This document shows, one piece after another, positions 6,215-48,378 of a stretch of DNA of 64,000 bases. The stretch spans positions 1-64,000 of the forward strand of contig CAMDAD010000011.1 of the NCBI GenBank assembly GCA_945888515.1, written 5' to 3'. The notes under the pieces are model-generated. The model was not told where the DNA came from, did not search any database, and was given only the letters and a program-made list of their open reading frames with translations. The position numbers and the translations under genes are program-made. Position 1 is the first letter of the stretch. Each line of letters begins with the position of its first letter. The stretch is from Akkermansia muciniphila. GTDB lineage: Bacteria > Verrucomicrobiota > Verrucomicrobiia > Verrucomicrobiales > Akkermansiaceae.

Positions 6215-9200
6215 TCACCCAAGTTGTTTTGCAAGGAAAGCAGCGGTGCGCGATTCTTTGACCTTTGCCACCAATTCGGGAGCGCCCTGCGCCACCACCG
6301 TGCCGCCCGCAGCGCCGGCCTCGGGGCCGATGTCGATCACCCAGTCGGCCTCAGCCGCCACCGCCATGTGATGCTCGATCACCACCACCGTGTGCCCTTC
6401 ATCGACGAGGCGATGCAGCACATCGATCAAGCGCCGCACGTCCTCCAGATGCAAGCCCACAGTCGGCTCCTCGATCAAATACAGGTTCCCCTTGCTTTGT
6501 TTCAGTTGCGCCATGCGTTTGCGCAGCGATCTGCCACGGGAAATCTCGCTGACCAGCTTGATGCGCTGCGCCTCACCACCTGATAGAGTAGGCGACGCCT
6601 GCCCTAAGGTCAGATAGCCCAGTCCCGTCTCGTTCAGCAAACGCAGTGGTTCGGAGAGGCGCGTGTGGGTTTCAAAAAACTGCGCGGCTTGCTCGATGGA
6701 CATCGCCAGCACATCGGCGATGGAACAATCTCGATAGAGCACGTCGAGGGTCGCGGCATTGTAGCGCTTGCCTTGGCACACATCGCAAGGCACCCATGCC
6801 GATGGGAGAAAATCCATCTCCAGCTTGATCCGGCCATTCCCCTTGCATTCCTCGCAGCGTCCGCCATCGGTATTGAACGAGAAACGGGAGGCATCGAAGC
6901 CGCGCGCGCGCGCCTCTGGCACTTGCGCGTAGACCTTGCGAATTTCATCGAAGATGCCCACGTAGGTCGCGGGGCAGGAGCGAGATGTTTTGCCGATGGG
7001 CGACTGATCGACCTCGGATACCAACTCGATCACCTCGAAGCCCTTGGCCTTGCCGAAGCTCATCGCCGTGGTTGATTTTTTCCCCTGCGCACGCGCCGCG
7101 GGTGCTAGGCATCCATGCAGGAACGACGACTTGCCCGAACCAGAAACTCCCGTCAACACCGTCAGACAAGCCACCGGAATCTTCACATCAATGTTCTGCA
7201 AATTGTTCGCATGACAGCCTAACAATTGCAACCACTCGCGTTTGCCTGAAACATCGCGACGACTTCCTCGCAGTGGATGTTTCATCTCGATCGCCATGGC
7301 GCGAAGTGTGGGAGAAAGCTGGTTCGCCGCGAGCTTGCGCGGGCCACGCCCGTGGCGGGGCGGCTTGCCCTCATAGACTACCTGCCCGCCCAATCGCCCC
7401 GCTGCCGGGCCGAGGTCGATCAACCAATCCGCGGCGGCGATGGTGTCCTCATCATGCTCCACCACCACCAACGAGTTACCGCGATCACGCAACGCGATCA
7501 AGGTCTCTAACAATGCGGCGTTGTCGCGCGGATGCAGGCCTATGGTCGGTTCATCGAGCACATAAAGCACCCCGCGAAGGTTCGAGCCGAGCTGTGCCGC
7601 GAGGCGGATGCGCTGGCTTTCTCCGCCGGAGAGCGTGCGTGCCGAGCGATCGAGCTGCAGGTAACCGAGCCCCACCTTGCTCAAAAATTGCAGGCGCTGG
7701 TGAATTTCCGGAATGATGTCGCGCGCGATCAATTGCTGACGGTTCTCACCAAATTTCAGTCGCTCAAAATGTCGTGCCGCATGTGTGATGGGAAGTCGCG
7801 CCAGTGCACCGATTTCCACATCCGCCACTTGCACGCGTGAGGAATCGCGGTGCAGACGCGCGCCTTCACACACTGGGCAAGTGATCAGTTCGTCCGCCTC
7901 CATTCGCTCTAACGAACGCTCCTCATCGACCTCGGCGGCGAGGAGGGAATCGAAACGCGAGACATCAAGACAGCGTCGTTTTTTTGGAACCATTCCGTAG
8001 CCGCGGCATTCGAGACACCAGCCGTGCGGTGAGTTGAAGGAAAAATGGCGCGGATCCAGCTCCTCATAGGATGTCCCGCACACGGCACAGGCCTGCTGGG
8101 ATGACAATACCTGAAAGGTATGAGCGCTCGTCAGCAGCCGCACCGTGCCTTTGCCGATGCGCAGCGCCTCTTCGAGCTGCGCGCCCATGGACTTGGTGGC
8201 GGTGGTGAAATGCGCGATCATCACATCGATGTCGTGCTCCTTGAAGCGTTCGAGCGGGCGGAATGACTCGGCCTCGATGAGTTGTTTATCCACCAGCATT
8301 GTCTGATAGCCGTGCTGTAGCGCCCAGGTGGCGACCTCAGTGTGATAGCCCTTGCGCCCGCGAATCAGGGGCGCGAACAAGCGAATGGGGCCCTTTTTCA
8401 AGTGACGCCGCAGCGTTTGCTCCATCGCACTGAGCGATTGTTTTTCCACCGGCTGTCCGCAACAATAGCGCGTGCCGAGCTTGGCATAGAGCAGGCGGAT
8501 GAAGTTCCAAACTTCGGTGATCGTGGCCACGGTCGATTTTCCACCACCTTGGGAAATGCGCTGTTCGATCGCCACTGTGGGCGGCAGTCCGCTGAGATGA
8601 TCGAGGTCAGGCTTCTCTAACTGATCGGCAAATTGCCGCGCGTAGGCCGACATCGAGTCGAGGAAACGGCGTTGTCCCTCGGCAAACAAGATGTCGAACG
8701 CCAGCGTCGATTTCCCAGAGCCACTGAGCCCAGAGACGACGACAAATTGATCGCGCGGAATCGTTAGCGAAATATTTTTCAGGTTGTGGTGGCGCGCGCC
8801 GTGCAGAGTGATCTGTGCGGGGGCTTTCACGACGGATGGCGCAGTGGTTTTGGCGGCCTTCGCTTTTTTGCCGCTGAGTTTCTCCTTCAGATAACGAGCG
8901 GTCTCGCTACCGCTTTTTGCGATCTCCTCCGGAGTCCCCGCACCGATGATTTTCCCGCCATCCGCACCCGCACCAGGGCCCAGATCGATTACCCAATCTG
9001 CCGCTGCCATGACATCGAGATGATGCTCGATCACTAACACGCTGTTGCCGGCATCGACGAGTTGCTGGAAGACATTGAGCAAGGTGGCGACATCGGAAAA
9101 GTGCAAGCCTGTGGTCGGTTCATCGAGAATCAACAAACGTCCACTCTCGGTCTTCGTGCCGAGCAGTGAGGACAGCTTCAAGCGCTGCGACTCACCGCCG

Positions 9201-11725
9201 CTGAGTGTATTGAGCGGTTGACCGAGCCGCAGGTAGCCGAGGCCCACACGCTCTAAGGGCCGTAAGAGCTCGATGGCTTTTTGCGCGAGGCGTTTGATTT
9301 TTTTGCTGTCATCCTCGCACATCGCGGCGAGCGATTGGATCGCACCCGCGACGGTCAATTCGAGCCAGTCGGCGATGTTTTTTTCGCTCAGGGTGAATTC
9401 CAGTGCTGAAGGGCGATAGCGCCTACCGCTACAGTCCGGACAGGTCACCTGAATGTCGCTAAGGAACTGCATTTCCACATTCTCATAGCCCGCGCCTGCG
9501 CAGCGATCGCAGCGACCTTGACCGGAGTTGAAGGAAAAATACCCGGGCTGCAATCCGGCAGACTTCGCTTGCTCGGTCTCGCACAGCAACTGACGAATCA
9601 AGTCAAAGGCACCGCAGTGCACCGCGGGAGTCGAGCGCGGCGTGCGCGCGAGGGCGGATTGATCCACCAATAACACCTCTCTCACATGCTGCGATCCTGT
9701 AAGGCTTTGAATCGTCGCCGCCTCGCGTTCATCGCCGGGATCTTGACCGAGCTTGCGCGCCAGATTGGCAAAGAGGACATCGTGCGCGAGCGTGGATTTT
9801 CCCGAACCGGAAACGCCGCTGAGGCAGACAAAAATTCCTAACGGAATTTCTACATCGAGCTTTCTGATGTTATGTCGAGAGGCACCGCAGATGATGAGTT
9901 TTTTTTGACTCACCTTCCGACGTTTTTTCGGCAAAGGGATGCTTTTGCGTCCATCCAGCCAGGGAATCGTGCCGGTCGTTTGTTTGGGATTGATGGCGAT
10001 GCCCTGATAGACCAGCGAACCTCCCTGCTCGCCCGCTGCGGGGCCGAGGTCGATGATTTCATCTGCCGCCACCATCACCGCTTCCTCGTGTTCGACCACC
10101 ACCAGAGTATTGCCCTTATCGCGCAGCCGATGCATCACGCCGACGAGTTGCTGGATATCGCGTGCATGCAGTCCCACGGTCGGCTCATCGAGCACGAACA
10201 AGGTATTCGTTAGTGATGCACCAAGGCAAGTGGTGAGATTGACCCGCTCCATTTCCCCTCCCGAAAGCGTGCGTGTCTGGCGATCGAGTGTGAGATAGCC
10301 CAGTCCGACATCCACGAGGTATAGCAGTCGCGAGTGGATTTCCGTGCGGACCAGTTCCAGCGAGTTGTCGGTAGTCGTGAGCGCGCCAAACCACGTCACT
10401 AGATCGCAGATCGGCATGTGCCAGATTTCCGGCAATGATTTCCCCTGCACGCGGAAACACAGTGCCTCGGCCCGCAGGCGTTTGCCGCGGCAGACGTGAC
10501 ATTCGGTGTAGGAGCGATAGCGCGAGAGGAAGACTCGCACGTGCATCTTATAGGCCTTCGTTTCCAGCCAATCAAAAAATCCTTTGATGCCATACCATCG
10601 CCCATCGCGCCAAGCGTCGTCGGGATCGCCGCCTTCGCCGTAGTTCACCCACTCACGCTGATCTTCCGTGAGATCCTCCCAGGCCGTGTTCACATTGATT
10701 CCCTGCACCGTACAACAGCGCAGCAAATCGCGCTGGCATTCCTCGCCGCGCTCGCCCTGAAACGGCTTCACCGCTCCCCCGCGAATGCTCAGGCTCGGGT
10801 CCGGCACGGCCTTGGTGAGATCGATGCCAATCACGCGACCAAAGCCACGGCATTTTGGACAGGCGCCGCGCGGGCTATTGAAGGAAAACAATCCGGCCGA
10901 TGGTTCGCAGAGCTGGAACCCCGTCGCCGGATTGATCCAGTCATTGGTGAACTGGCGCAGCGTTTCCGCCGCCGCATCCGTGCCACACACCGCGAAGCTG
11001 CCCCGGCCATGATGCGCCGCCGCTTCCAGTGCCTCGAGCAAGCGCGCGCGTTGTGATGTTTTCACCGATAGGCGATCCTGCACGATCCACAACTGCGCCG
11101 GCAATGTCGCATGCGGACAGGCCTGCGGCTCATCGGTGCGATAGACCGCGCCGTAGATCACCACGCGCAGGAATCCCTGTTGCATTAGCAAAGGGAAAAA
11201 ATCACCGGGTGTAGCACTCTCCGGCACGCGTGCGGAAAATAGCAGCAGGATATGTTGATTCAGTCGCTCGGCCAGCAACCAAGCGAGCGCGGACTCCGGG
11301 CTATCGGGCTTGATTTCCTCACCAGTCTGTGGGTCGTAGCCTTGACTGGCTCTGCCGAAATAGACTTTGAGATAGTCATTGATCTCCGTCAGCGTGCCGA
11401 CCGTCGAGCGCGTGGTGCGCACGTGATTTTTCTGCTCGATCGCGATCGCCGGCAAGATGCCATCGATCTCATCCACCTCCGGCTTATCCATGCGATCGAA
11501 AAACTGCCGCACATAAGGCGAAAATGTTTCTACGTAACGCCGCTGCCCTTCCGCATAGAGCGTGTGGAATGCGAGCGACGACTTGCCGGATCCGGAGGGT
11601 CCCGTGACCACCGTGAGCTTGCCGTGGGCGATGGTGAGATCGAGGCTCTTGAGATTGTGTTGTCGTGCTCCCCGGATGCGTATGACCGCGTCTTTTTCCC
11701 CCTGCTGCCCTGATTGTTTCGCCAC
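6215..11725 (-). CDS. uvrA: Double-length UvrA (excinuclease ABC subunit A), two tandem UvrA units
   Basis: UvrA is the damage-recognition ATPase of nucleotide excision repair and loads UvrB. This protein has 1836 residues, twice the usual ~940, and carries four ATPase cassettes. Unit 1 has Walker A GPSGSGKSS (42-50) and, in its second cassette, GVSGSGKST. Unit 2 starts near residue 975 with GLSGSGKST and ends with GVSGSGKSS. Four Cys-x2-Cys zinc-finger regions are visible, for example CDRCAGAGY...CPDCSG and CEECKGNGR...CDVCQG. Walker B is LDEPT in the first three cassettes but IEEPT in the fourth, an Asp-to-Glu change. The first cassette's signature reads LSGGEMER where LSGGEAQR is usual. 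Start codon is GTG at 11725. Chlamydiae are known to have such a duplicated UvrA, so this fits a PVC host. panC follows after 44 bases. Confidence 0.93.
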   Translation of the reverse strand: MAKQSGQQGEKDAVIRIRGARQHNLKSLDLTIAHGKLTVVTGPSGSGKSSLAFHTLYAEGQRRYVETFSPYVRQFFDRMDKPEVDEIDGILPAIAIEQKNHVRTTRSTVGTLTEINDYLKVYFGRASQGYDPQTGEEIKPDSPESALAWLLAERLNQHILLLFSARVPESATPGDFFPLLMQQGFLRVVIYGAVYRTDEPQACPHATLPAQLWIVQDRLSVKTSQRARLLEALEAAAHHGRGSFAVCGTDAAAETLRQFTNDWINPATGFQLCEPSAGLFSFNSPRGACPKCRGFGRVIGIDLTKAVPDPSLSIRGGAVKPFQGERGEECQRDLLRCCTVQGINVNTAWEDLTEDQREWVNYGEGGDPDDAWRDGRWYGIKGFFDWLETKAYKMHVRVFLSRYRSYTECHVCRGKRLRAEALCFRVQGKSLPEIWHMPICDLVTWFGALTTTDNSLELVRTEIHSRLLYLVDVGLGYLTLDRQTRTLSGGEMERVNLTTCLGASLTNTLFVLDEPTVGLHARDIQQLVGVMHRLRDKGNTLVVVEHEEAVMVAADEIIDLGPAAGEQGGSLVYQGIAINPKQTTGTIPWLDGRKSIPLPKKRRKVSQKKLIICGASRHNIRKLDVEIPLGIFVCLSGVSGSGKSTLAHDVLFANLARKLGQDPGDEREAATIQSLTGSQHVREVLLVDQSALARTPRSTPAVHCGAFDLIRQLLCETEQAKSAGLQPGYFSFNSGQGRCDRCAGAGYENVEMQFLSDIQVTCPDCSGRRYRPSALEFTLSEKNIADWLELTVAGAIQSLAAMCEDDSKKIKRLAQKAIELLRPLERVGLGYLRLGQPLNTLSGGESQRLKLSSLLGTKTESGRLLILDEPTTGLHFSDVATLLNVFQQLVDAGNSVLVIEHHLDVMAAADWVIDLGPGAGADGGKIIGAGTPEEIAKSGSETARYLKEKLSGKKAKAAKTTAPSVVKAPAQITLHGARHHNLKNISLTIPRDQFVVVSGLSGSGKSTLAFDILFAEGQRRFLDSMSAYARQFADQLEKPDLDHLSGLPPTVAIEQRISQGGGKSTVATITEVWNFIRLLYAKLGTRYCCGQPVEKQSLSAMEQTLRRHLKKGPIRLFAPLIRGRKGYHTEVATWALQHGYQTMLVDKQLIEAESFRPLERFKEHDIDVMIAHFTTATKSMGAQLEEALRIGKGTVRLLTSAHTFQVLSSQQACAVCGTSYEELDPRHFSFNSPHGWCLECRGYGMVPKKRRCLDVSRFDSLLAAEVDEERSLERMEADELITCPVCEGARLHRDSSRVQVADVEIGALARLPITHAARHFERLKFGENRQQLIARDIIPEIHQRLQFLSKVGLGYLQLDRSARTLSGGESQRIRLAAQLGSNLRGVLYVLDEPTIGLHPRDNAALLETLIALRDRGNSLVVVEHDEDTIAAADWLIDLGPAAGRLGGQVVYEGKPPRHGRGPRKLAANQLSPTLRAMAIEMKHPLRGSRRDVSGKREWLQLLGCHANNLQNIDVKIPVACLTVLTGVSGSGKSSFLHGCLAPAARAQGKKSTTAMSFGKAKGFEVIELVSEVDQSPIGKTSRSCPATYVGIFDEIRKVYAQVPEARARGFDASRFSFNTDGGRCEECKGNGRIKLEMDFLPSAWVPCDVCQGKRYNAATLDVLYRDCSIADVLAMSIEQAAQFFETHTRLSEPLRLLNETGLGYLTLGQASPTLSGGEAQRIKLVSEISRGRSLRKRMAQLKQSKGNLYLIEEPTVGLHLEDVRRLIDVLHRLVDEGHTVVVIEHHMAVAAEADWVIDIGPEAGAAGGTVVAQGAPELVAKVKESRTAAFLAKQLG

Positions 11726-13840: not shown

Positions 13841-13928
13841 TTTTGAGGGGGGTGGATGTTCGTGGGGTAGTAGCTCATGAAGTCGCTGAGCTAGGTGACC
13901 TCACACAAACAACACTACGAACACGAAC

Positions 13929-14168
13929 ATGAAACACTACAACATCATTGGCCTACTGGGCATGCTTGCTCTTTTGTCATCCTGCACCAACTCGGGACTG
14001 GCAAGCGCGCCCCAATCCTCTAACGGGAAACCACTGCTGACCCGTTCCTCCCACGCATCCATGCCCACTTCCTACAAAGGTGAGGGCACGCATGTGGGGC
14101 GAAAATACTACCATCCTCCCGGATCCAAAATGGGGACTCAGTGGGTGGATTTTTATGAGCAACCCTAA
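13929..14168 (+). CDS. Small lipoprotein of unknown function
   Basis: A 79-residue protein with a clear lipoprotein signal: MKHYNIIGLLGMLALLSSC, with the lipobox L-S-S-C at residues 16-19. The mature part is short, polar and Gly/Ser/His-rich, with no known domain. It ends 41 bases before the small membrane protein of the sigma-factor cassette and could be its first gene. No function is assigned. Confidence 0.7.
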   Translation: MKHYNIIGLLGMLALLSSCTNSGLASAPQSSNGKPLLTRSSHASMPTSYKGEGTHVGRKYYHPPGSKMGTQWVDFYEQP

Positions 14169-14209
14169 TCGGAACATGCTATAGTTCCCCGACTCACAGC
14201 TCCACCGCC

Positions 14210-14536
14210 ATGATCCAGACCGACGAAGAACTTGATGAGGAAATCGATGCATTGCTGGCCGATTGGCAGGAATCCATCGAGACGCCTCAGGATTTCAAAC
14301 GCGAAGTCTGGCGGCGCGTGGAGTTGTCCGGTCCCTGCCGACACGGTATCCTCGAGCGCTTGGCTTGGTGGATCCTGCGTCCGATGCGTGAGCTGGTATT
14401 GTTGACGTTGGTGGTGTTAGTCGCCTTGATCTGGGGTCTTACCCATCCACCGGAGCCGGAGTATTCCGCTCATGATGCCTATCTGCTTTCGATCAGTCCT
14501 TTCGACCCCCATCACTACGAGGCATTGTCGCGATGA
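14210..14536 (+). CDS. Small single-pass membrane protein, candidate anti-sigma factor
   Basis: A 108-residue protein with an acidic N-terminal half (ETPQDFKREVWRRVE, residues 24-38), one membrane helix at about residues 62-83 (LVLLTLVVLVALIWGL) and a short outside tail. Its last codon overlaps the next gene's start by four bases (ATGA), showing translational coupling. Size, topology and position directly before a periplasmic helical sensor and an ECF sigma gene match CnrY, the membrane anti-sigma factor of the CnrYXH system. Sequence similarity to CnrY itself is not obvious, so the role is inferred from context. It could alternatively be an unrelated scaffold protein. Confidence 0.65.
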   Translation: MIQTDEELDEEIDALLADWQESIETPQDFKREVWRRVELSGPCRHGILERLAWWILRPMRELVLLTLVVLVALIWGLTHPPEPEYSAHDAYLLSISPFDPHHYEALSR

Positions 14537-15009
14537 GTTCCGTCAAAAAACTTTTTGCCTACCTGATCCTGTTGTGCCTGGCGGCCTTCGTCACGCACTG
14601 GGCGGTGCAGAATCATTTTCGTTCGCAACAAGATCCGCACGAGACCGGACTGGAATGGATGCGCGCCGAATATGACCTAGATGATGAGACTTTTTCCCGT
14701 GTGAAACTCCTGCATCAGATCTACTTCGCTGAGTGCGAGGCCATGACTAGCAAGATTGGCAAGGTCGATCGCATTCTACTTTCTCCACCGCGGCGTGGCA
14801 AGGTATCCGAGGAAACCAAACGCAGCGCGATTCAGTTGGATGAAGCTCTGTGCGCGGATTATGAGGCGGTGACACTCAGGCATCTGCAGGAAGTGGCAAC
14901 ACTGATGACACCCGAGCACGCCGAGCGATTTCTCACCGATTTCACTACCAATGTGCAACGGCAACGCATGGAACATCAGCGCGCATTGTCGGAGAGAGCA
15001 AAACAATGA
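14533..15009 (+). CDS. Periplasmic CnrX/Spy-like helical sensor
   Basis: A 158-residue protein with an N-terminal membrane anchor (residues 7-22) and a mainly helical periplasmic part of the heavy-metal-resistance/Spy-CpxP type: H-E-T-G-L-E-W near 36, a central helix with FAECEAM, and LRHLQEVATLMTPEHAERFL near 113-132, where 'L-x-P-E-H/Q-x-x-x-F/L' is typical. In CnrX the metal ligands include HxxxH and HxxxM pairs; here each pair keeps only the first histidine, so metal sensing is uncertain. It overlaps both neighbours by four bases (ATGA at 14533 and 15006). By position it would be the signal-receiving subunit controlling the adjacent sigma factor. Confidence 0.65.
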   Translation: MSSVKKLFAYLILLCLAAFVTHWAVQNHFRSQQDPHETGLEWMRAEYDLDDETFSRVKLLHQIYFAECEAMTSKIGKVDRILLSPPRRGKVSEETKRSAIQLDEALCADYEAVTLRHLQEVATLMTPEHAERFLTDFTTNVQRQRMEHQRALSERAKQ

Positions 15010-15584
15010 CAGAGGAGCGCGACGAACGCGCCGTATCTTTGATGCGGGCGTTATCCGAGGGTCGGGATGAGGCCCTCAATGCGTTGATGACGGACTGGTC
15101 CGCCCTGCTGATTGCCTACTTGACCAAGGTCACTGGATCCGCCTCTACGGACGAGGATCTAGCGCAGGAGACCTTTGTGCGCATCTACCGTCACAAACTC
15201 GACTATCGCCCGCATCAGAGATTTTCCACATGGCTGTATACGATCGCGACGAATCTCGCGAGAAATTATCATCGCTGGAAACAACGGCATCCGGAGGATT
15301 CCGTGGAACCGGAAACTCTATCGGGTCTGGCTGCGGCTGCCACCACCGATGATCCGCACCAAAGTGCCAGTCGTAGCGAAACGATGCGCGCCTTGGCACA
15401 GGCACTGAAAAAACTTCCCGACACGTATCGCGAGGCTCTGTTGCTTTCGTCCAGCCAAGGTCTCAGTTACAGCCAGATTGCCCGCGTGCAGAATTCTACG
15501 GAAAAAGCCGTGGAGTTGCGGATTTATCGGGCTCGTCAGATCCTCCGCGAGCTGATGGCAACGTATCACGATGCATCGAAATGA
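15006..15584 (+). CDS. ECF RNA polymerase sigma factor
   Basis: A 192-residue group IV sigma-70 factor. Region 2 spans about residues 15-90, with DEDLAQETFVRIY (core binding) and FSTWLYTIATNLARNYHRW (-10 recognition). Region 4 spans about 130-188, with LKKLPDTYREALLL, GLSYSQIA and STEKAVELRIYRAR (helix-turn-helix for the -35 element). It starts in the last codons of the sensor gene (ATGA overlap), so the three proteins are probably made together. The likely logic is that a membrane anti-sigma factor holds this protein until the periplasmic sensor signals. Targets cannot be predicted. It converges on the SMP-30-like gene with only three bases between stop codons. Confidence 0.9.
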   Translation: MTEERDERAVSLMRALSEGRDEALNALMTDWSALLIAYLTKVTGSASTDEDLAQETFVRIYRHKLDYRPHQRFSTWLYTIATNLARNYHRWKQRHPEDSVEPETLSGLAAAATTDDPHQSASRSETMRALAQALKKLPDTYREALLLSSSQGLSYSQIARVQNSTEKAVELRIYRARQILRELMATYHDASK

Positions 15585-24646: not shown

Positions 24647-24979
24647 CGCAAGTTTTCAGCAAGTTATCCAGCTCACTCATACTTGGCAATCAGAAATTCT
24701 CCCGTTGCGGCAGGGCGACCAAACGAGGAAAATGGGTTGGTGTGTTTGTCTAATCATAATCATTGATTGATCTCAGCGGAAAACTGTAGTCTCAGTGGCG
24801 CGCTAGCTTGAATCACAGTATACAACCGATTCCTTCGTTGCATCGCCGCGACCCCGCGAAGCAACTCCATCTCCTTCATCCGCTGGCACGGTATGCGCTG
24901 ATGTAGGCCAAAGTCGTGCTTTTCCCTCCGTGTTTTCTTGCCAACCAGCCGGTTCTGTAGTGGATTGTTGCTGTTGTCC
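24647..24979. other. Divergent intergenic region
   Basis: The region between the amidase and the ABC transporter ATPase starts; it must hold promoters for both. A minus-strand open frame ends at 24760 with a basic, coding-like peptide (MKEMELLRGVAAMQRR...), but it runs back through the transporter gene and I cannot match it to any family, so it is not called. Confidence 0.4.
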
Positions 24980-26032
24980 ATGGAATCGATACGAGTGGAA
25001 AAGGTGGTGAAGGCTTTTGGGGAGACGCGTGCGCTGAATGGCGTAACGTTGGAGATCCGCCCCGGCGAGTTGTTTTTTTTGTTAGGAGCTTCGGGTTGCG
25101 GAAAATCGACTCTGCTTCGCTGCATTGCTGGGCTTGAAACGCCTACTGACGGTTCCATCTTTTTCGGCGATCGCGACGTCACCACTATGGCTCCGCATAA
25201 GCGAGAGGCGGCGATGGTGTTTCAAAGTTACGCACTGTGGCCACATCTGAGCGTGGCAAAAAATATTTCCTTCGGGCTGGAGGAACGCAGGATGCCGAAG
25301 GAGGAAATCAAACGTCGTGTCGAGGAGGCGCTGGCGATGGTGAAACTGGACGGATTTGGCGCGCGCTCGATCGATGCCATGTCTGGAGGCCAGCAGCAAC
25401 GCGTGGCTCTGGCGCGTGCCTTGGTGGTCCGGCCAAAGTGCCTGTTGCTCGATGAGCCGCTGTCCAATCTCGATGCCCAGTTACGGATTGAAATGCGTCG
25501 TGAAATTCGACGTATCGTAAAAGAATTCGGATTGACTGCGATCTATGTGACGCACGATCAGGAAGAGGCGCTAGCTATGGCAGACCGCATGGCAATCCTC
25601 TCGCGTGGGGTCGTGGAGCAGCTTGGCACGCCCGAGGAAGTGTATCGCGATCCGCGAACCAGTGGTGTGGCGGCGTTTATTGGCGAGACGAATTTGTGTG
25701 ATGGGGTGATCGAAAAAGATGCGCACGGCTGGGCGGTGCGCTTGGGGCAGCTTCGTTTGGCGGCACGCATCACCCATGCTGATTGGCAGCCTAGCGATGG
25801 TCAAATCGCTAAGGTTTCGATGCGACCGGAAGCTCTGCGCATCGATCCCGCAGGACTTATAGCCGCAAAGGTATGGGAAAAAGTGTATCTGGGGCAGAGC
25901 ATCCAATACTGGGTGGAGACCGCATTCGGGCGCTTGCAGGTAGTGGAGCAGAACCCGCATCGCATTTATGCTCCGGGAGATGCGCTGACGCTGGCCATTG
26001 ATGCAGCGGATGTCATTTTGTTAGAAAAATAA
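24980..26032 (+). CDS. Iron(III)-type ABC importer, ATP-binding subunit
   Basis: A 350-residue ATPase of the FbpC/PotA/MalK class. Walker A GASGCGKST is at residues 36-44, Q-loop VFQSYALWPHLSV starts at 80, signature SGGQQQRVALARAL is at 135-148, Walker B LLLDEP at 155-160, and the H-loop VTHDQEEAL near 191. A C-terminal TOBE-like domain (about 245-345) is present. The ATG at 24980 begins the conserved MESIRVEKVVKAF; an upstream in-frame ATG at 24938 is not supported. The binding protein follows after eight bases and the permease overlaps that, making a complete three-gene importer operon. Confidence 0.92.
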   Translation: MESIRVEKVVKAFGETRALNGVTLEIRPGELFFLLGASGCGKSTLLRCIAGLETPTDGSIFFGDRDVTTMAPHKREAAMVFQSYALWPHLSVAKNISFGLEERRMPKEEIKRRVEEALAMVKLDGFGARSIDAMSGGQQQRVALARALVVRPKCLLLDEPLSNLDAQLRIEMRREIRRIVKEFGLTAIYVTHDQEEALAMADRMAILSRGVVEQLGTPEEVYRDPRTSGVAAFIGETNLCDGVIEKDAHGWAVRLGQLRLAARITHADWQPSDGQIAKVSMRPEALRIDPAGLIAAKVWEKVYLGQSIQYWVETAFGRLQVVEQNPHRIYAPGDALTLAIDAADVILLEK

Positions 26033-26040
26033 AAACGATC

Positions 26041-27546
26041 ATGATCAAGCGCATGGGAATCATCGTAGGCTTGTTGGTAGCGATCGTGCTACTTCCGGTG
26101 CTATTGCGCAAAGAGTCCGCCACGGCAGCGCCTGCTTCTGCGGATGATCGACTGGTCATTATCACGCCGCACAACGAATCGATACGCAACGAATTTGGCG
26201 AGGCCTTTGCACGGTGGTGGAAGAAGCGCAGCGGACGTTCTGTTTATGTTGATTGGCGCACACCGGGAGGTACGGCGGAGATTCGTAAGGTGCTCGATTC
26301 TGGCTATGCCGCTGCCGATGAGCGCGGTGCCGAGGGCATCGGGATCGATCTCTTTTTCGGCGGAGGCGACTACGAATTCAAAACTCAGCACAAGCCTAAA
26401 AAAGGTGAGAGTCGATTGGTTCGGTTAGAGGTCTTTGATCAACATCCGGAATGGTTTGGGGACTCTGGTATCGTGCAGTATTTTTCTGGTGAGCAGTATT
26501 TTAACGATGAACGAACATGGGTCGCAGCGTGTTTGTCGCAATTCGGAATTTGTTACAACGAGGATGCGTTGCGGCGACTTGGTTTGCCCGTGCCTCAGGG
26601 ATGGGAGGATCTGGGTGATCCGCGATACGCCGGCTATCTCGCACTGGCGGACCCCAGCAAGAGCGGTTCTGTGGCGCGCGCTTTTGAATTGCTCATTCAA
26701 CAGCAAATGCAGATCGCTACAGAGATCGATCCCGTCAGTGAGAATTCTACCATTGCCCGCAATGTCGGTTGGGAGAGGGGGTGGCAGCTCATCATGCGCT
26801 TGTGTGCGAATGCCCGCTATTTCACCGACAGCGCCTCGAAGATCCCGCAGGACGTCGGGCAGGGGGACTCGGTGGCGGGCATGTGCGTGGATTTTTACGG
26901 ACGATCGTTTAGCGATGAATTGAAGCGCCATGATGGCACATCGCGCTTGCGGTGGATCGCCCCGTTGGGCGGCTGTTCTCTTAGTGGCGATCCGATTGCT
27001 GTGATGCGCGGCGCGCCGAACCCTGCGGTGGCGCAGGCATTTGTGGAATTTGTCCTGGCTGATCAGGGGCAGATCTTATGGAATGCCAAGCCTGGCGCAT
27101 CCGACGGGCCGATGTCAAAGGCTCTGCGACGCATGCCAGTTCGTCGTGACATCTACACAACGCAAAATCGTATGCGGTTCAGTGATGGTGAAATCAATCC
27201 TTATGAAGCCACGGGAAATTTTGTCTACAAACCAGAACTGACAGGTAAGGCGTTTGGCACGATCCGTGCCTTGGTGAGAATTGTGGGAATTGATTCACAC
27301 GAGGAAATGAAAAGCGCGTGGAAAGTCTTGCGCGAGGCGAATTTTCCCGAGGAAGCGATGAAGGTGTTTTTTGATGTTTCGGCTTTGGACTATCAACGCA
27401 TGAAGGATGGCGACCCATTGCTTGGGTCTGCCGATGCGCTAGATTCCGCCGCCCGCGCCTCGGAGCTCGGAGCGCATTTTCGTGCCCAATACCAAAGGGC
27501 CGAAGCCATGGCTCGTGAGGTGATAGTGAAAGGAGGAACTCCATGA
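26041..27546 (+). CDS. ABC importer extracellular solute-binding protein
   Basis: A 501-residue protein with an N-terminal membrane anchor or signal (residues 5-22, GIIVGLLVAIVLLPVLL) and a periplasmic-binding-protein fold of the FbpA/AfuA type: VIITPHNESIRNEFGEAF near 46-63, VYVDWRTPGGTAEI, FGICYNEDALRRLGLPVP, WEDLGDPRY and LADPSKSGS near 210-220. The length is well above the ~340 of typical FbpA because of an insert after residue ~100 (FFGGGDYEF) and a C-terminal extension of about 100 residues. It lies between ATPase and permease; the stop overlaps the permease ATG (ATGA). Iron is the likeliest substrate by family, but phosphonate-, thiamine- or sugar-phosphate-binding relatives exist. Confidence 0.85.
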   Translation: MIKRMGIIVGLLVAIVLLPVLLRKESATAAPASADDRLVIITPHNESIRNEFGEAFARWWKKRSGRSVYVDWRTPGGTAEIRKVLDSGYAAADERGAEGIGIDLFFGGGDYEFKTQHKPKKGESRLVRLEVFDQHPEWFGDSGIVQYFSGEQYFNDERTWVAACLSQFGICYNEDALRRLGLPVPQGWEDLGDPRYAGYLALADPSKSGSVARAFELLIQQQMQIATEIDPVSENSTIARNVGWERGWQLIMRLCANARYFTDSASKIPQDVGQGDSVAGMCVDFYGRSFSDELKRHDGTSRLRWIAPLGGCSLSGDPIAVMRGAPNPAVAQAFVEFVLADQGQILWNAKPGASDGPMSKALRRMPVRRDIYTTQNRMRFSDGEINPYEATGNFVYKPELTGKAFGTIRALVRIVGIDSHEEMKSAWKVLREANFPEEAMKVFFDVSALDYQRMKDGDPLLGSADALDSAARASELGAHFRAQYQRAEAMAREVIVKGGTP

Positions 27547-29237
27547 GAAAAGGCTACGCATGGACCATCATGGTTGCGGTCTTCGTTTTGTTTTCGGTCT
27601 TTTTCATCTATCCGGCTTTCACTATCGTAGGGGAAGCCTTTGGAAAAAAAGGCGGCGGCTTTACGTTTGCCTACATCACCGCGGTATTTCGCGATCCGGT
27701 GTATCTGGAGGGATTGTGGAATGCGTTTGCGCTCGGCATCGTCAGCACGGCAGCGACTTTGTTGATTGCTTTTCCGTTGGCCTTGTTTTCCCACCGTTAT
27801 GATTTTGTCGGGAAAAAATGGCTGAGTGTGCTGGTATTGGTGCCGCTGATTCTCCCACCCTTCGTAGGTGCCGTGGGAGTCAAGGAAATGTTAGGAGTTG
27901 ATGGCGCGCTGAACGCTTTTCTGATCGATCTGGGCTGGATGGAAGCCGCGCGACCCTATGACTGGCTTGCGAACGGGCGCTTCACGGGCATCGTAATGAT
28001 GAATGCGTTGCATCTCTATCCGATTCTCTACATGAACATCGCGGCGGCTTTATCGAACCTCGATCCAGCGATGGAGCAAGCCGCACAGAATCTCGGTTGC
28101 CCACCGTGGCGTCGGTTTTGGAAAATCACCTTTCCGCTCACGCTACCCGGCGTGTTTGCCGGAGCCTCTATCGTCTTTATCTGGGCCTTCACCGAATTAG
28201 GAGTACCTCTCGTGTTCGACTACGCCCGCGTCGCACCGGTGCAGGTCTATGACGGCATCAAGGACCTAGGCGGCAATCCCTTGCCCTATGCGATCGTCGC
28301 GATCATGCTGGTTATTTCGGCTTTGGTCTTTGCCGTATCGAAGTTGGTGCTCGGTCGCTCGCCGCTGGGCACGGCACCGCGTCCGAAAGGTCGGAGCCAT
28401 CAGGTTGTGTTATCGGGTGCAAAATCATGGCTACTGTGCGGCGTTTTTTTGGTTGTATTTCTTTTTGCCTCCGTGCCCCACCTGGGAGTGATATTCCTAT
28501 CGGTTTCTACTGATTGGTATCAAACCATCTTGCCTAGCGAGTTGACCATGCGTCACTACGACGAGGCGCTCGGAAATTCCTTGGTCGTGCCCTCGATTCA
28601 GAACAGCTTGTTTTATGCATCGATGGCGACCGTGATCGATTTGTTGCTAGGCATCTCGATTGCCTGGGTGGTGGTTCGGAGTAAAATCCAAGGTCGAGCC
28701 CTGCTCGATTCGTTGGTGATGCTTCCCTTGGCCGTTCCGGGCTTGGTGATGGCGTTCGGCTACCTGGCGCTCTCGCAGCCTGGCAAGCCGTTTGCGTTTA
28801 TGATCGGTGCCGATGGCAATCCAGCGTTGTTGTTGATCGTGGCGTATGCGTTTCGTCGGCTACCTTACGTTGTTCGCTCCGCCGTGGCGGGCCTGCAGCA
28901 GAGCAATCCTGTGCTGGAGGAGGCGGCTCGCTCCATGGGTGCCACGCCAGTGAGGACCTTGCGGAAAATCGCATTGCCCTTGATCGGAGCAAACCTCGCT
29001 GCCGGAGCGATTCTTGCCTTCGCCTTTGCCATGCTGGAAGTGAGCGATAGCCTCATTCTGGCGCAGCAAACCGAGCATTATCCCATCACTAAAGCGATCT
29101 ATACTTTGCTGAGCACCTTGGGCAATGGCGTTCAACTGGCGGCCGCTCTCGGCTTCTGGGCGATGGTGTTTCTCTCGGTGGCCATCATCGGTGCGGCGGT
29201 GATCGGCGGAAAGCGCGGTGGCTTGTTCAAGGTCTGA
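27543..29237 (+). CDS. ABC importer permease with two fused MetI-type domains (FbpB-like)
   Basis: A 564-residue inner-membrane permease with about 12 helices in two repeated halves. Each half has the EAA loop that docks the ATPase: EQAAQNLGCPPWRRFWKI followed by FPLTLPG in the first, and EEAARSMGATPVRTLRKIAL in the second. Fusion of both halves is normal for FbpB/AfuB iron(III) permeases. Translation is coupled to the binding protein by a 4-base overlap at 27543. The operon ends here; no obvious terminator follows in the next 240 bases. Confidence 0.92.
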   Translation: MRKGYAWTIMVAVFVLFSVFFIYPAFTIVGEAFGKKGGGFTFAYITAVFRDPVYLEGLWNAFALGIVSTAATLLIAFPLALFSHRYDFVGKKWLSVLVLVPLILPPFVGAVGVKEMLGVDGALNAFLIDLGWMEAARPYDWLANGRFTGIVMMNALHLYPILYMNIAAALSNLDPAMEQAAQNLGCPPWRRFWKITFPLTLPGVFAGASIVFIWAFTELGVPLVFDYARVAPVQVYDGIKDLGGNPLPYAIVAIMLVISALVFAVSKLVLGRSPLGTAPRPKGRSHQVVLSGAKSWLLCGVFLVVFLFASVPHLGVIFLSVSTDWYQTILPSELTMRHYDEALGNSLVVPSIQNSLFYASMATVIDLLLGISIAWVVVRSKIQGRALLDSLVMLPLAVPGLVMAFGYLALSQPGKPFAFMIGADGNPALLLIVAYAFRRLPYVVRSAVAGLQQSNPVLEEAARSMGATPVRTLRKIALPLIGANLAAGAILAFAFAMLEVSDSLILAQQTEHYPITKAIYTLLSTLGNGVQLAAALGFWAMVFLSVAIIGAAVIGGKRGGLFKV

Positions 29238-43080: not shown

Positions 43081-46000
43081 ATGAAATATCGAAGACCAAT
43101 TCTGCCGATACTAGGCACTTATCTCGCTGCTCTCGGCTGCTCTGCCCACGCAATCGATATCGTAAAGGATAATAACTCCAACGCCCTCAACCTCGGCACC
43201 AGCTGGGTCGGTGGGACCGGTCCCTCCGCTTCCGATGTCGGTCTCTGGAACAACACCGTGAGCGCCACCAACGCCGTCGGTAGCCCGACCATCAACGCGC
43301 TGGGCGCCGACCTTTCCTGGCAGGGTATCCGCATCGCCAACGTCGGCGGCACCGCCAACACCAGTTCCGCCACCACTGGCGTTCAAATCACCAACGCCTC
43401 TTCCGCCAACACGCTTACCCTCGGCACCGCAGGCATCGACATGTCCACCGCCACTCAGTCGCTTCTGATCCAGTCAAAAATCGCACTGTCGGGGAACCAG
43501 AGCTGGAACGTAACCAACGCCAATACCAACACCAATCCCTTAGGCACTTCAGGCGGCGTCTTGAACGCCGGACTTGGCGAGGATCTTGTGTTCGCCGCGC
43601 AAGCAACCACCACCCCCATGAACCTCGGCGGATTCACCCTCGGCACATCCGGCACCGGAGTGATCGCGGTGACCAACGGCTACGCCATCAGCAACGGCAC
43701 GCTCAATTTCGCCAATTCGAACACCTGGCTCCAGTCCGGCAGCGGGCGCCAGACCTCGCTCGCCAGCAACCTCTCTGTCACCGTAGCCGCCAACTCGAAC
43801 CTCCGCCTCCGCGCGAACTCGGGCGGCGTCAATTCCGCCGCTCCGATCAGCGTCTCCGGCTCCGGCTCGAAACTCCAGATGGAGATCAACAACAGCGGAG
43901 CTTCGATGATCCAGAGCGGCAACCTGACCTTCGGCAACGGCTCCACCCTCGAACATCTCGTCAACCAAAGCGGCGCGTTCACCGTCTCTTCCCCGACCAT
44001 CTCGACCTCCGGCACGATCACCTGGCTGGTCAACGGCACCAATGTGGGCAGCACCAGCGGCGTCGCCTTCTCCGGCGGCCTCACCGGCAACGGCACCATT
44101 GCCCACCGCAACACGGCCACCGGAACGAACGGACAAGTCCGCCTTTCGGGCGACAACTCGCTCTTCACGGGATCGATCACCCTCGACGGTTCTTCCGGCA
44201 ACCGCAGCCTGCGCCTTGCCTCCGCTACCGCCGGCAGTTCTTCCGCCACCTGGGCCGTCAACGCCGCCAACATCCTCCAGGTCGACGGTGTCGCCGTGAA
44301 CCTCGGCACCCTCAACGGCGCGGGCAGCGTCACCAACTCCCACGCCAGCAGCACCGCCGCCATTTCCGTCGGCGCGGGCACTTTCAGCGGCGTGATCTCG
44401 AACGGCACGCCCGCCAACGGCATGACCCTCACCAAGACGGGCGCTGGCACCCTCGCCCTCACCGGCGCGAACACCTACAGCGGCCCCACCAACATACAAG
44501 CCGGCACCCTCACCACCACCTCCGCCCAGATCGGCGCGGGTGCGGTGACGGTCTCCGATACCGCCACCTTCGGCGTCACTCAGATCGGTGGCAACGCTAC
44601 CTTCAACGCCTCCACCCTCACCCTCGGCAGCGCGGGCGGCGCAACTCTCGTCCTCACCCCGGCCGCCTCGTCCAGCGTCGCCCTCGTCACGACATCCGCC
44701 CTCGACATCAACGGCACCAATACCCTGCGTGTCGCCGGCACCCCTGTCGTCGGCACCACGCTGATCGACTACACCACCCTCGGCGGCAGCAGCGGCTTCG
44801 CCGGCCTGAACCTCGTGATGCCCTTCCGCATCAACGGCTTCCTCACTGACAACGGCTCGGCCATCGTGCTCAGCACGGTCCAGGACGAAACTCCGAAATG
44901 GCGCAACGGCAGCGGCGTCTGGGACATCAACACCAGCAGCAACTGGAAAACCAGCGCCACCTCCACCACCACCAACTACCTCCAAGGCGGAGCCGGCGCG
45001 ACCGACTCGGTCATCTTCGACGACACTGCCAGCGGCTTAGGTCCCATCACCGTGACCCTTAACTCTACGGTCACTCCGGTCGCCGTCACCGTCGCCGGCA
45101 CCAAGGACTACATCATCACCGGCTCCGGCACCATCGCTGGCACCACCGGCATCGCTAAGAGCGGCGGTGCCGCGCTCACCCTCGCCACGGCCAACAGCTT
45201 CAGCGGCGGTGTCCAACTCACCGAAGGCACCCTCAACGTCAACCACGCTTCCGCCCTCGGCAGCGGCACCCTGACCCTCGCCGACGGCATCGTCTTGAAC
45301 AACACTAGTGGCGCTGCCATCACCGTGTCGCCTGCGGTTGCTTCGGTCTGGAATGGTAGCTTTAGCTTCACGGGATCGAACGACCTGAATCTCGGCGGTG
45401 CGGTCACCGCCACCACCTCGACGACCGTTACTGTTGCTGCGGGTACCCTCGCCGTCGGCGGCATCGCTGGGCCAGGTTTCGGCCTGACCAAGCTAGGTGC
45501 CGGCACCTTGGTGATCGGTGCCAGCAGCTACAACGGCAGCACCTTCGTCGATGCAGGAACCCTCCGCGCCAGCGCTGCCGCCGCCTTCAACTCAACCTCC
45601 GTAACCCTTGCTGATGTCGCTGGCGTGAACCTCGACCTCAACGGTTTCAACCAGACCATCAGCACCCTCGGCGGTGGTGGCACGACTGGTGGCAACGTTC
45701 TCCTCGGAGGCGCCACTCTGACCACTTCGTCCTCCGGCACGATTGGAGCTCTTTCCGGGGCCGGTGCTTTGGTCAAGAACAGCGTTTCTACATTCACCAT
45801 CGCAGGCAATACTAGCGGCTACACAGGCACTACGACGATTAGCGGTGGCGTGCTGGATGCGGGAAATGTCGGCGACTTTCTCGGTTCTTCCGGTGTCCTG
45901 ACGATGTCCAACGGCTCGGTGCTCCAAGGCTCCGGCACCATCACCCGCACCATCGGCAACGGCAACGCCATCGTTGCCGGCAACGGCGGCTTTGCCGCCC

Positions 46001-47049
46001 GCGGTGGCCCGCTCGATGTCGATCTGGATAATCCCGCCACCGCAGGTGCCTCCTTCTTCGACTTCAACGGCAGCGGCAACGCCTTCGGTGGCGGCTTCGT
46101 CCTCGGCTCCACCACCGCCAACAACGTTGTGCGCGTCCTCAACTCGATCGGGATCAACAACAACGGCGGCAGCCGAACGGTCACGGTGCCAGTCGGCGCC
46201 GGCGGCGATTCCGCCGAACTCGCGGGCGCGGTCACTCCGGGCACTGCGAGCGGCGTGTCCGGCCTCCTCAAAAACGGCGGCGGCCTGCTGACTCTCAGCG
46301 GAGCCAACACCTACATCGGCAACACGACGGTCAACGAGGGATCGCTTACCCTTGCCGCAACTGGACAACTGAGGTTCAAGCCTACAACGAACGGCAATAG
46401 CAACAAGATCTTCGATGCATCGCCCGACACCATCCCTCCTGCACTCAATCCAGTGGTATTGAATGGAGCTTTTGAAATTGATCTCAGTACGACTTCGGTC
46501 GCCACTGGTAACTCGTGGACTTTGGTCGACCTCGCTTCCGTCAATGCCACCTTCGGTGCCGACTTCGATGTGCTGGAATTTACCGATAACGACCTCGACA
46601 ACGTCTGGACCAAGGTCGATGCCTCTGGCCACAACTGGAGTTTCAGCGAAGCCACTGGTGTGCTGACGGTTGTACCCGCCGGCTATATCACTTGGATCAC
46701 GGGAACTTTTGCAAACGGCACCGTTCCTCTTGCGCAACAAGGAAAATCCGCAGATCCAGATGGAGACGGCATCAGCAACCTACTCGAATACGCAATAGCT
46801 GGTCTAGATCCTACCGTATCCAATGGTTCGATGGGTAGCTTTACCGACAATGTGCTGTCCTACTCCAAGCGACTGCCTCTTGACTCCAGCCTGAGCTATA
46901 AGATCGAACAATCGATCGACCTCGGCGTGACACCATGGGCAGAAGTGCCTGCCGGCATCGACTATATCAATAACGGCACTACGATTTCGTATGATCTCCC
47001 GGCGAATATGCAGCGTAATTTCATTCGTCTGCAAGTGACCACTCCTTGA
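43081..47049 (+). CDS. Giant exported protein with autotransporter-associated beta-strand repeats
   Basis: A 1322-residue secreted protein. Signal peptide residues 1-25 (LPILGTYLAALGCSAHA). The body is Thr/Asn/Gly/Ser-rich beta-helix sequence with repeats of the type L-x-K-x-G-x-G-T-L-x-L-x-G-x-N-T-Y-x-G-x-T-x-I-x-x-G-T-L at about residues 450-480, 691-720, 801-830, 897-928 and 1061-1090. A DxNxxxNW unit (WDINTSSNWKTS) is near 614. The end has the calcium-loop-like PDGDGISNLLEYAIAG near 1225 and a final beta module also seen in the cytochrome protein downstream. Such proteins are abundant in Verrucomicrobia and thought to be surface or secreted structural or adhesive proteins; no enzyme domain is visible. 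Coding strand is extremely C-rich between about 43200 and 46300. Confidence 0.85.
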   Translation: MKYRRPILPILGTYLAALGCSAHAIDIVKDNNSNALNLGTSWVGGTGPSASDVGLWNNTVSATNAVGSPTINALGADLSWQGIRIANVGGTANTSSATTGVQITNASSANTLTLGTAGIDMSTATQSLLIQSKIALSGNQSWNVTNANTNTNPLGTSGGVLNAGLGEDLVFAAQATTTPMNLGGFTLGTSGTGVIAVTNGYAISNGTLNFANSNTWLQSGSGRQTSLASNLSVTVAANSNLRLRANSGGVNSAAPISVSGSGSKLQMEINNSGASMIQSGNLTFGNGSTLEHLVNQSGAFTVSSPTISTSGTITWLVNGTNVGSTSGVAFSGGLTGNGTIAHRNTATGTNGQVRLSGDNSLFTGSITLDGSSGNRSLRLASATAGSSSATWAVNAANILQVDGVAVNLGTLNGAGSVTNSHASSTAAISVGAGTFSGVISNGTPANGMTLTKTGAGTLALTGANTYSGPTNIQAGTLTTTSAQIGAGAVTVSDTATFGVTQIGGNATFNASTLTLGSAGGATLVLTPAASSSVALVTTSALDINGTNTLRVAGTPVVGTTLIDYTTLGGSSGFAGLNLVMPFRINGFLTDNGSAIVLSTVQDETPKWRNGSGVWDINTSSNWKTSATSTTTNYLQGGAGATDSVIFDDTASGLGPITVTLNSTVTPVAVTVAGTKDYIITGSGTIAGTTGIAKSGGAALTLATANSFSGGVQLTEGTLNVNHASALGSGTLTLADGIVLNNTSGAAITVSPAVASVWNGSFSFTGSNDLNLGGAVTATTSTTVTVAAGTLAVGGIAGPGFGLTKLGAGTLVIGASSYNGSTFVDAGTLRASAAAAFNSTSVTLADVAGVNLDLNGFNQTISTLGGGGTTGGNVLLGGATLTTSSSGTIGALSGAGALVKNSVSTFTIAGNTSGYTGTTTISGGVLDAGNVGDFLGSSGVLTMSNGSVLQGSGTITRTIGNGNAIVAGNGGFAARGGPLDVDLDNPATAGASFFDFNGSGNAFGGGFVLGSTTANNVVRVLNSIGINNNGGSRTVTVPVGAGGDSAELAGAVTPGTASGVSGLLKNGGGLLTLSGANTYIGNTTVNEGSLTLAATGQLRFKPTTNGNSNKIFDASPDTIPPALNPVVLNGAFEIDLSTTSVATGNSWTLVDLASVNATFGADFDVLEFTDNDLDNVWTKVDASGHNWSFSEATGVLTVVPAGYITWITGTFANGTVPLAQQGKSADPDGDGISNLLEYAIAGLDPTVSNGSMGSFTDNVLSYSKRLPLDSSLSYKIEQSIDLGVTPWAEVPAGIDYINNGTTISYDLPANMQRNFIRLQVTTP

Positions 47050-47083
47050 CCATCCGTGGTTCTCTGAACTAGTTTCATTCATC

Positions 47084-47108
47084 AGGGCGGTTCTCCATGA
47101 GCCGTCCT
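47084..47108 (+). terminator. Possible weak terminator or attenuator
   Basis: AGGGCGG (47084-47090) pairs with CCGTCCT (47102-47108) with one G-U pair around an 11-base loop. Only a poor T tract follows, so partial read-through into the next genes is likely. It lies 35 bases behind the repeat-protein stop. Confidence 0.35.
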
Positions 47109-47125
47109 GTGTTTCACGCAGATTC

Positions 47126-48340
47126 TTGATTATGTTCGTCCGTATTTTTAGTATACTCATCTGCTTATTCGCATTCGCAGCAGTTCCATTGTCTGCGGCC
47201 ACTACTCTCGACCCGATGGTCGCTCTCTTTCACAAATGGCAGATGAAAGATGCGGCTGTTATGGTCGAAAAAGCGGCTGAGGGTGGGCACAAACATGTCC
47301 AGTTCTGCATTGCGCTGCAAGCGCAGTTGGATCTGCAGCACCGGGTCAAAGTGATCGGACTCTATCGAGAAAATCGCGACCCTGCTGCCGGAGGAAATGT
47401 CTTCTACCCATCGGACTCGGAAGTCATCAGTGAGCTTAAAAATTATTATACCACATGTTTTTCCAAGGCTGTCGAAAAAAAACTCGCCATCTCGGTGCTC
47501 CTTCATCTCAACGCACACGGCGAGATTCAAGAGTGGCGCAATCATTACGATTTCGATCCGCTCCTGCCGATCTCTGGCATGACCTACGAGGAAAGCGTGC
47601 TGTTGCCCATCGTCGAGAGCCTCGAGGCCACGGTTCCCGCCGACTGGCCGGTCGAACTCTCGTTGCAAGGCGAGATGGGAACCACCGTCTTCAAGTACCC
47701 TGACTCCTGGCGTATCCTGATCGAGCGCCTCCGCTCCCGCGGTAAACTTTCCAGGGCCCGCTTCGGTCTCAGCTTCAATTATCAGGGCGTCGCCGGCAGC
47801 GCCAACGTCGCCGAGACCGATCCCGCAGCGCTCAAGAAACTCTGGGACGCCTGCGACTTCATCGGCGTCTCGATGTATCAGCGCGTCAGCATGCCGCCGC
47901 GGTCGGAGGACTTCGACCTTGCGGTGGGCCTCTTTGCCGGCGAGTTCATCGGCCTCGGCTGCCCGCTCCCTAGCGCCAAGCCGATCCACTTCGTCGAAGT
48001 GGGAATCGGCGGTGGCGGGCTCTCGGATACTGACTGGAAACCGCGCATTCCTGCCACCAACGCCGCCGACGCTGCTCGCGCGCCTTACCTGGGAAGCCCC
48101 AGCGCGACCGAGGTTGACCCATGGTCCGATCCCGCCCTTAAATCCCTTCGCAACGGCTACCACCGCGCCCTTTGCTATTACCTCGCCGACACCCGCCAGC
48201 GGCATCCCGTCCAGCGCGCCTTTTTGTGGAGCTTCGGCTCCTGGGATCCGCAAGGCCTCGGCGAAGCCCGCTTCGCCGACAACGATATCATCCGCTTTAT
48301 CAGCGAGCATAACCGCAAAGTTCCCGGACCCGGATCGTAG
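47126..48340 (+). CDS. Exported TIM-barrel-like protein, possible clan GH-A glycoside hydrolase
   Basis: A 404-residue exported protein (signal peptide about residues 3-24, FVRIFSILICLFAFAAVPLSA). The pattern suggests a (beta/alpha)8 glycosidase: successive strand-like blocks KHVQFCIALQAQL, LAISVLLHLNAHGE, VELSLQGEMGTT with E183, RARFGLSFNYQG, CDFIGVSMYQR, KPIHFVEVGIGGG with E291, and AFLWSFGSWDP. A Glu after strand 4 and another on strand 7 are the acid/base and nucleophile of clan GH-A; 'DFIGVSMY' and 'KPIxxxEVG' resemble GH113-like mannanases. I cannot assign a family with certainty. It begins a run of three closely spaced genes (38 and 36 bases apart) for exported proteins. Confidence 0.6.
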   Translation: MIMFVRIFSILICLFAFAAVPLSAATTLDPMVALFHKWQMKDAAVMVEKAAEGGHKHVQFCIALQAQLDLQHRVKVIGLYRENRDPAAGGNVFYPSDSEVISELKNYYTTCFSKAVEKKLAISVLLHLNAHGEIQEWRNHYDFDPLLPISGMTYEESVLLPIVESLEATVPADWPVELSLQGEMGTTVFKYPDSWRILIERLRSRGKLSRARFGLSFNYQGVAGSANVAETDPAALKKLWDACDFIGVSMYQRVSMPPRSEDFDLAVGLFAGEFIGLGCPLPSAKPIHFVEVGIGGGGLSDTDWKPRIPATNAADAARAPYLGSPSATEVDPWSDPALKSLRNGYHRALCYYLADTRQRHPVQRAFLWSFGSWDPQGLGEARFADNDIIRFISEHNRKVPGPGS

Positions 48341-48378
48341 TCCCGGACCGGAAATCCAAACCCATCGAAACTCATCCG

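Follow-up and report, generated by a model that had tools for sequence, protein, structure and literature searches.

CnrYXH, familiar above all from Cupriavidus, is a textbook example of a sigma system that senses metals, and 3 overlapping genes in the window (i.e. the whole stretch of 64,000 nucleotides analyzed here) raise the question of whether Akkermansia muciniphila carries a switch of the same type and, if so, which signal it reads. A sequence-only reading had described a cassette of 108, 158, and 192 residues whose genes overlap by 4 bases, and this description is exact: the open reading frames lie at 14210–14536, 14533–15009, and 15006–15584 (108, 158, and 192 codons), with a 4-base (ATGA) overlap at both junctions. 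Their order, i.e. adjoining genes for an anti-sigma-type protein, a sensor, and an ECF sigma factor, is that of cnrY-cnrX-cnrH on pMOL28, again as first noted. The features of the locus are listed below.

13845–13872, + strand: promoter predicted for the cassette's own ECF sigma factor (GAGGGG at 13845–13850 on the −35 side, 13 bases, then GGGGTAGTA at 13864–13872 on the −10 side)
13878–13903, + strand: predicted hairpin in the 5′ UTR; a CA-rich and G-poor leader comes after it (hairpins in 20 related leaders)
13929–14168, + strand: 79-residue lipoprotein, gene 1 of the operon and proposed output (lipobox LSSC; homologs in f4, another family of the same order)
14210–14536, + strand: putative 108-residue single-pass anti-sigma in the CnrY position (family motif, modeled helices, weak NCBIfam matches in relatives)
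14533–15009, + strand: predicted 158-residue membrane-anchored, CnrX-like periplasmic sensor (profile, fold, and alignment; H61, C68, C107, and H117 present, C72 and C110 lost)
15006–15584, + strand: 192-residue ECF sigma factor in the CnrH position (Pfam and NCBIfam domains, CnrH match, tree)

Gene order and the upstream lipoprotein

Flanks were compared across 41 related loci, the window included, and the sigma gene could be called in 39. An anti-sigma-type gene lies immediately 5′ of the sensor gene in all 41, with a 4-base overlap between sensor start and anti-sigma stop in most of them, and the sigma gene begins no more than 75 bases past the sensor stop in 39 of 39; the sensor/sigma overlap is again 4 bases in most loci of the lipoprotein type. 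Because this order recurs across the related loci, the three-gene arrangement is not due to chance.

The lipoprotein gene that had been noticed ahead of the cassette is present, ending 41 bases before it. The idea of a mere neighbor does not hold, however, and the gene is rather a fourth, conserved part of the unit that has a predicted promoter of its own. Its product carries the lipobox LSSC, with the predicted lipidation site at Cys19, and the conserved motif R-x-Y-[YF]-H-P-P-G-x-K-x-G-x-x-W, and lacks the Cys or His clusters seen in typical metal stores. Homologs head the cassettes of f4, and in this sister family the lipoprotein gene and the predicted promoter travel with the cassette, which makes the predicted unit larger than 3 genes. 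As judged from these comparisons, the window cassette is a CnrYXH-type anti-sigma/sensor/ECF-sigma unit, with 4 genes once the lipoprotein is counted.

The CnrYXH system of Cupriavidus metallidurans pMOL28 (and NccYXH) has the same gene order, sizes, and overlapping starts, and likewise combines a membrane anti-sigma, a membrane-anchored helical sensor that is homologous by profile and fold, and an ECF sigma factor. In contrast, the window operon is headed by a lipoprotein gene and is without downstream efflux-pump genes, and 4 of the 5 CnrX ligands, Met123 included, are absent from its sensor or changed. The Cys-type cassettes of Verrucomicrobiota (L003–L017 apart from L015, plus L060 and L062–L079) also have homologous sensor, anti-sigma, and sigma proteins, several with a small exported-protein gene ahead. 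They differ in three ways: the product of this head gene, where one is found, is a Cys-rich protein resembling metallothionein (as in several sister-group loci); the sensor has C68/C72/C110; and several of the cassettes have cus/cop genes as neighbors.

Small exported proteins very rich in Cys head several Cys-type cassettes; they are encoded at 759–1136 of L010 and ahead of the anti-sigma gene in L060, L062, L078, and L079. Genomes of f4 also hold stand-alone paralogs of the lipoprotein (L171–L176) that have no ECF promoter, 5 of 6 of which adjoin a divergent gene with the conserved motif TPQEQAAGW(K/R)LLFDGRST. A short inverted repeat, GGAAC-N8-GTTCC, lies at 14171–14188 between the lipoprotein and anti-sigma genes; it is absent from G042, a member of the same genus with the same type of cassette.

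Kinship of the three regulatory proteins

The 192-residue protein is beyond doubt an ECF sigma factor, as the sequence-only reading held, given its Pfam and NCBIfam domain matches (Sigma70_r2, 6e-15; r4_2, 2.7e-12; TIGR02937, 2.2e-25). It matches the CnrH structure 4cxf at 4.1e-13, and in a tree with 10 further ECFs from the window genome it is closer to CnrH than to the other ECFs tested, its clade being sister to the CnrH/NccH/Sphingomonad clade with modest support (83/86). All lipoprotein-type cassettes form a single clade in this tree (99/97). The pair formed by the window and G042 falls within the f4 members (99/98), a position that suggests a transfer of the cassette into the window genus, or its loss elsewhere.

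The AlphaFold2 model of the sensor (mean pLDDT 90.7) starts with a membrane helix, which is followed by a helical domain of periplasmic type. The proposed kinship of the sensor with the heavy-metal-resistance family is upheld by way of its relatives, which it reaches at 1e-10 in a sequence search. Specifically, a profile of these relatives matches NccX (7.8e-13) and CnrX (1.1e-9) in the PDB when the CnrX-like member L015 is included. With this one relative, which has the full CnrX ligand set, and the window pair both left out, the profile still matches NccX (1e-5) and CnrX (4e-5 to 5e-4). The HMM search suggested by the earlier reading succeeds for the relatives, with Metal_resist (PF13801) in 14 of 16, and gives no significant Pfam or NCBIfam match for the window sensor on its own or for the 108-residue protein. 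As a single sequence, the window sensor has a weak NccX match in the PDB (E 0.29). Because a profile built from the window subtype by itself fails to find CnrX in the PDB, the sequence link to CnrX is transitive.

At the level of fold, a Foldseek search with the window sensor model returns CnrX or NccX at all ranks from 1 to 15 (probability 1.00), with TM about 0.7 on CnrX chains, yet E of 0.017–0.18; a DALI-like Z (VIA) of 8.7 is tied with unrelated helical bundles and not distinctive. Periplasmic helical hairpins of the Spy/CpxP/LTXXQ and ZraP types share the broad fold and Pfam neighborhood of the sensor, and Pfam LTXXQ (Spy/CpxP-type) also matches 12 of the 16 relatives. These proteins are soluble and periplasmic, and their operons are not known to include a sigma/anti-sigma pair. 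From profiles and predicted fold, the window sensor is best classed as a member of the CnrX/Metal_resist family, and it falls outside CnrX proper because the CnrX ligand set was looked for and is not there. L015 itself, from the same family, holds a CnrYXH-like cassette (reverse complement, 1214–2491) with that full ligand set, and its sigma factor groups with CnrH.

In CnrY, 2 helices grip sigma4 and sigma2 of CnrH (PMC7406223). The model of the 108-residue protein (pLDDT 78.6) has helices at 5–19, 27–39, and (45–55), a membrane helix at 60–78, and a short tail, i.e. the CnrY class II layout of 2 short N-terminal helices followed by 1 membrane helix (PMC7406223). Its family shares the motif DxLL...F(R)xxVWxRI...(TM)...AYxxSISPF, and 11 of 35 relatives have weak NCBIfam anti-sigma matches. 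Alignment of this family with CnrY by hhalign gives 51% with L015 in both alignments and about 2% with L015 left out of the CnrY set, and a PDB search with the family finds no CnrY match. As a counterpart of CnrY, the protein has the expected position and modeled helix layout, but the sequence comparisons do not establish direct homology to CnrY; we regard it as a putative anti-sigma that would bind the sigma factor.

Predicted promoter and distribution of the cassette

The motif GAGGGR-N13-GGGGTAGYA lies 5′ of the lipoprotein gene (13845–13872), and its exact form is unique both within the window and across the 3.36 Mb genome. The same motif with the same spacing is found 364–405 bases 5′ of the anti-sigma gene in 16 of the 41 related loci. 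Across 1.25 Mb of scanned strand there are 16 exact copies, all ahead of cassettes and nowhere else, and 13 of the 14 relatives with the exact motif have just one copy, at the cassette. With up to 2 mismatches allowed, the genome has 19 sites compared with 24 in a reversed control, and we therefore propose no additional target. CnrH itself transcribes the operon that encodes it (PMC4803752). Because the exact motif is usually single per genome and stands in front of gene 1, the simplest reading is a putatively autoregulated sigma factor with one main target, its own operon.

The 5′ UTR hairpin recurs in 20 related leaders with a mean MFE z-score of −4.1, the window copy reaching only −1.0. RNAalifold finds no consensus structure among related leaders because the stems differ in sequence, and an Rfam search gives no match.

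An operon of this kind could also answer to its own product: the co-expressed or mis-sorted lipoprotein would then be the signal, in an envelope-stress or feedback switch whose Metal_resist/Spy-like ancestry reflects fold only. The lipoprotein gene does lie inside the putative autoregulated operon, no other gene beyond the regulators has an exact copy of the promoter, and the LTXXQ matches of the relatives fit as well. However, several sister cassettes carry the unrelated Cys-rich protein at their head, which argues that this type of sensor needs no such lipoprotein, and the conserved His/Cys ladder described below points to ligand chemistry, so we consider lipoprotein feedback improbable.

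Sampled across Verrucomicrobiota, 43 of 240 genomes have a match to the sensor profile, and the sensor search was positive in 15 of 195 genomes of the family and 82 of 289 of the order. A single copy of the sensor cassette is present in the window genome. Any sensor of this kind is present in 3 of 10 genomes of the genus, and the window type in only 2; besides the window, these are G042, with the same type (92% identity), and G067, with the Cys-rich type. The next closest relatives of the window sensor are 34–40% identical and belong to f4, and a sigma-based scan of the genome collection returns G042 as the only close relative. Some f4 genomes hold a lipoprotein-type cassette plus other sensor copies, and this coexistence suggests that the copies read different cues.

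Our literature search, which mostly did not reach subscription papers, returned no description of CnrX-like/ECF systems in Verrucomicrobia. The comparison across genomes shows a CnrX-related sensor family that is widespread in Verrucomicrobiota, with a His/Cys set replacing the CnrX ligands and an output gene built into the regulatory operon, and it supplies a candidate promoter signature for a group of ECF factors without description in the literature searched.

Ligand positions, selection, and the candidate signal

CnrX proper, a Ni/Co sensor, has the ligand set H42/H46/E63/H119/M123, of which Met123 is required for signaling (PMC7689651). In an alignment with CnrX and Sphingomonad homologs, gap-free between the window sensor and CnrX from residue 35 through the ligand positions, these residues correspond to L40, R44, H61, H117, and V121. 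Partial retention of the metal-ligand pattern had been noted before and can now be stated more sharply: only 1 of the 5 ligands is kept, i.e. H119 (H117 in the window), and E63 is replaced by H61. The CnrX-like sensors of Sphingomonad plasmids, which have the same Y-X-H order with a CnrX homolog and an ECF sigma factor, keep all 5, whereas the Verrucomicrobiota family uses His and Cys positions instead. In the wider family, H61, C68, C72, C110, and H117 are near-invariant. The window lineage has T72 and Y110 in place of C72 and C110 (2 other relatives, L007 and L012, have Ser at 110), while H61, C68, C107, and H117 are invariant among 19 lipoprotein-type sensors. One scaffold hence presents testable ligand changes, from His/Met to His/Cys and then to the loss of 2 Cys.

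The sensor hairpin consists of helices 51–83 and 93–122, in which residues whose numbers sum to about 178 should face each other; by this register, H61-H117, C68-C110, and C72-C107 would make 3 stacked cross-helix pairs. Because H42/H46/M123 are absent and C72/C110 are lost, metal binding by the window sensor may be weak or gone.

Compared with G042, dN/dS (NG86) is 0.19 for the lipoprotein gene, 0.11 for the anti-sigma gene, 0.07 for the sensor gene, and 0.08 for the sigma gene. The sensor gene is under strong purifying selection despite the loss of C72/C110, and because its dN/dS is low it is not decaying. That the sensor site has been lost from a decaying copy, leaving a cassette that is no longer a working switch, would fit the missing C72 and C110 and the scarcity of such sensors in the genus; set against intact frames, a conserved promoter motif, and dN/dS of 0.07–0.19 between 2 species, it is very improbable.

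Several Cys-type relatives adjoin genes for CusA/CusB, CopA multicopper oxidase, or copper or other heavy-metal P-type ATPases, with a gene for a YHS-domain protein nearby in one checked case. The CnrX homologs of Sphingomonad plasmids adjoin copper-resistance genes (copC/copD and/or multicopper oxidase). Because relatives adjoin copper genes, a metal of the copper group heads our guesses for the ancestral signal, and the metal of the ancestral sensor was probably of this group. Among the neighbors compared, no metal-transport gene or gene of evident metal function is conserved beside lipoprotein-type cassettes.

This lack of metal genes nearby is one of several points that favor a thiol/redox or other nonmetal switch, in which a periplasmic C68/C107 disulfide would form or break and metal binding would have been given up in the lineage. 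The others are that C68 and C107 are invariant among the 19 lipoprotein-type sensors and C72/C110 dispensable in the window lineage, that the CnrX ligands H42/H46/M123 are missing, and that C72 and C110 were lost without relaxed selection. Yet H61 and H117, at the positions of E63 and H119 of CnrX, are likewise invariant, C68 would lie opposite 110 and not 107, so that a disulfide joining C68 to C107 would call for a displacement of roughly one turn, and the relatives resemble copper-group systems. We hold a thiol/redox switch to be a minority possibility, though a substantial one. In the same range, i.e. rather unlikely, we would place the broader proposal of a CnrX-derived sensor that reads a nonmetal periplasmic cue (thiol redox or lipoprotein status) and commands a one-promoter regulon, with a small lipoprotein of an undescribed family as sole output.

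The best reading is a self-contained, autoregulated periplasmic-signal switch derived from a thiol-type metal sensor ancestor, with the lipoprotein as main output. Taken as a whole, i.e. as a four-gene, self-inducing CnrYXH-type switch with a periplasmic signal that is most likely a copper-group metal and with a lipoprotein output, it is the account toward which we lean, with some reserve. Against it stand the weak matches of the window sensor and its subtype when taken alone, the changed and lost ligand residues, the lack of conserved metal-transport genes beside lipoprotein-type cassettes, and a lipoprotein that does not look like a metal store and whose relatives also stand alone without the promoter. 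The switch mechanism is likely; for the cue, a metal is no more than the best single guess, and a signal from thiols or the envelope is a serious rival.

Under this preferred switch, the 2 N-terminal helices of the 108-residue protein would at rest hold the ECF sigma factor at the inner membrane, and the 158-residue sensor, with its helical hairpin predicted to lie in the periplasm, would stabilize the anti-sigma/sigma complex. A signal in the periplasm, most likely a copper-group or related metal ion with a preference for thiols, would act around H61/C68/C107/H117, the complex would loosen, and the sigma factor would be released. Once free, it would read one main promoter (13845–13872) and transcribe the lipoprotein gene and the 3 regulators. 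Because this one main promoter would drive the lipoprotein along with 3 regulators, we infer that the lipoprotein is the output. After export and lipidation at Cys19, its probable role would be to bind or buffer the inducer, or else to shield the envelope.

Elsewhere in the window, three regions were noted by eye. A gene at 6215–11725 (− strand) encodes a double-length UvrA-like protein of 1836 residues, whose 2 UvrA-like halves were recognized from repeated ABC signature motifs. At 24938–29237 (+ strand), an ABC transporter set (ATPase, binding protein, and permease) resembles a ferric-iron uptake system. Finally, 43081–53421 (+ strand) encodes 2 very long predicted exported proteins, one of 1322 residues with autotransporter-like repeats and one of 1680 residues with CxxCH heme motifs.
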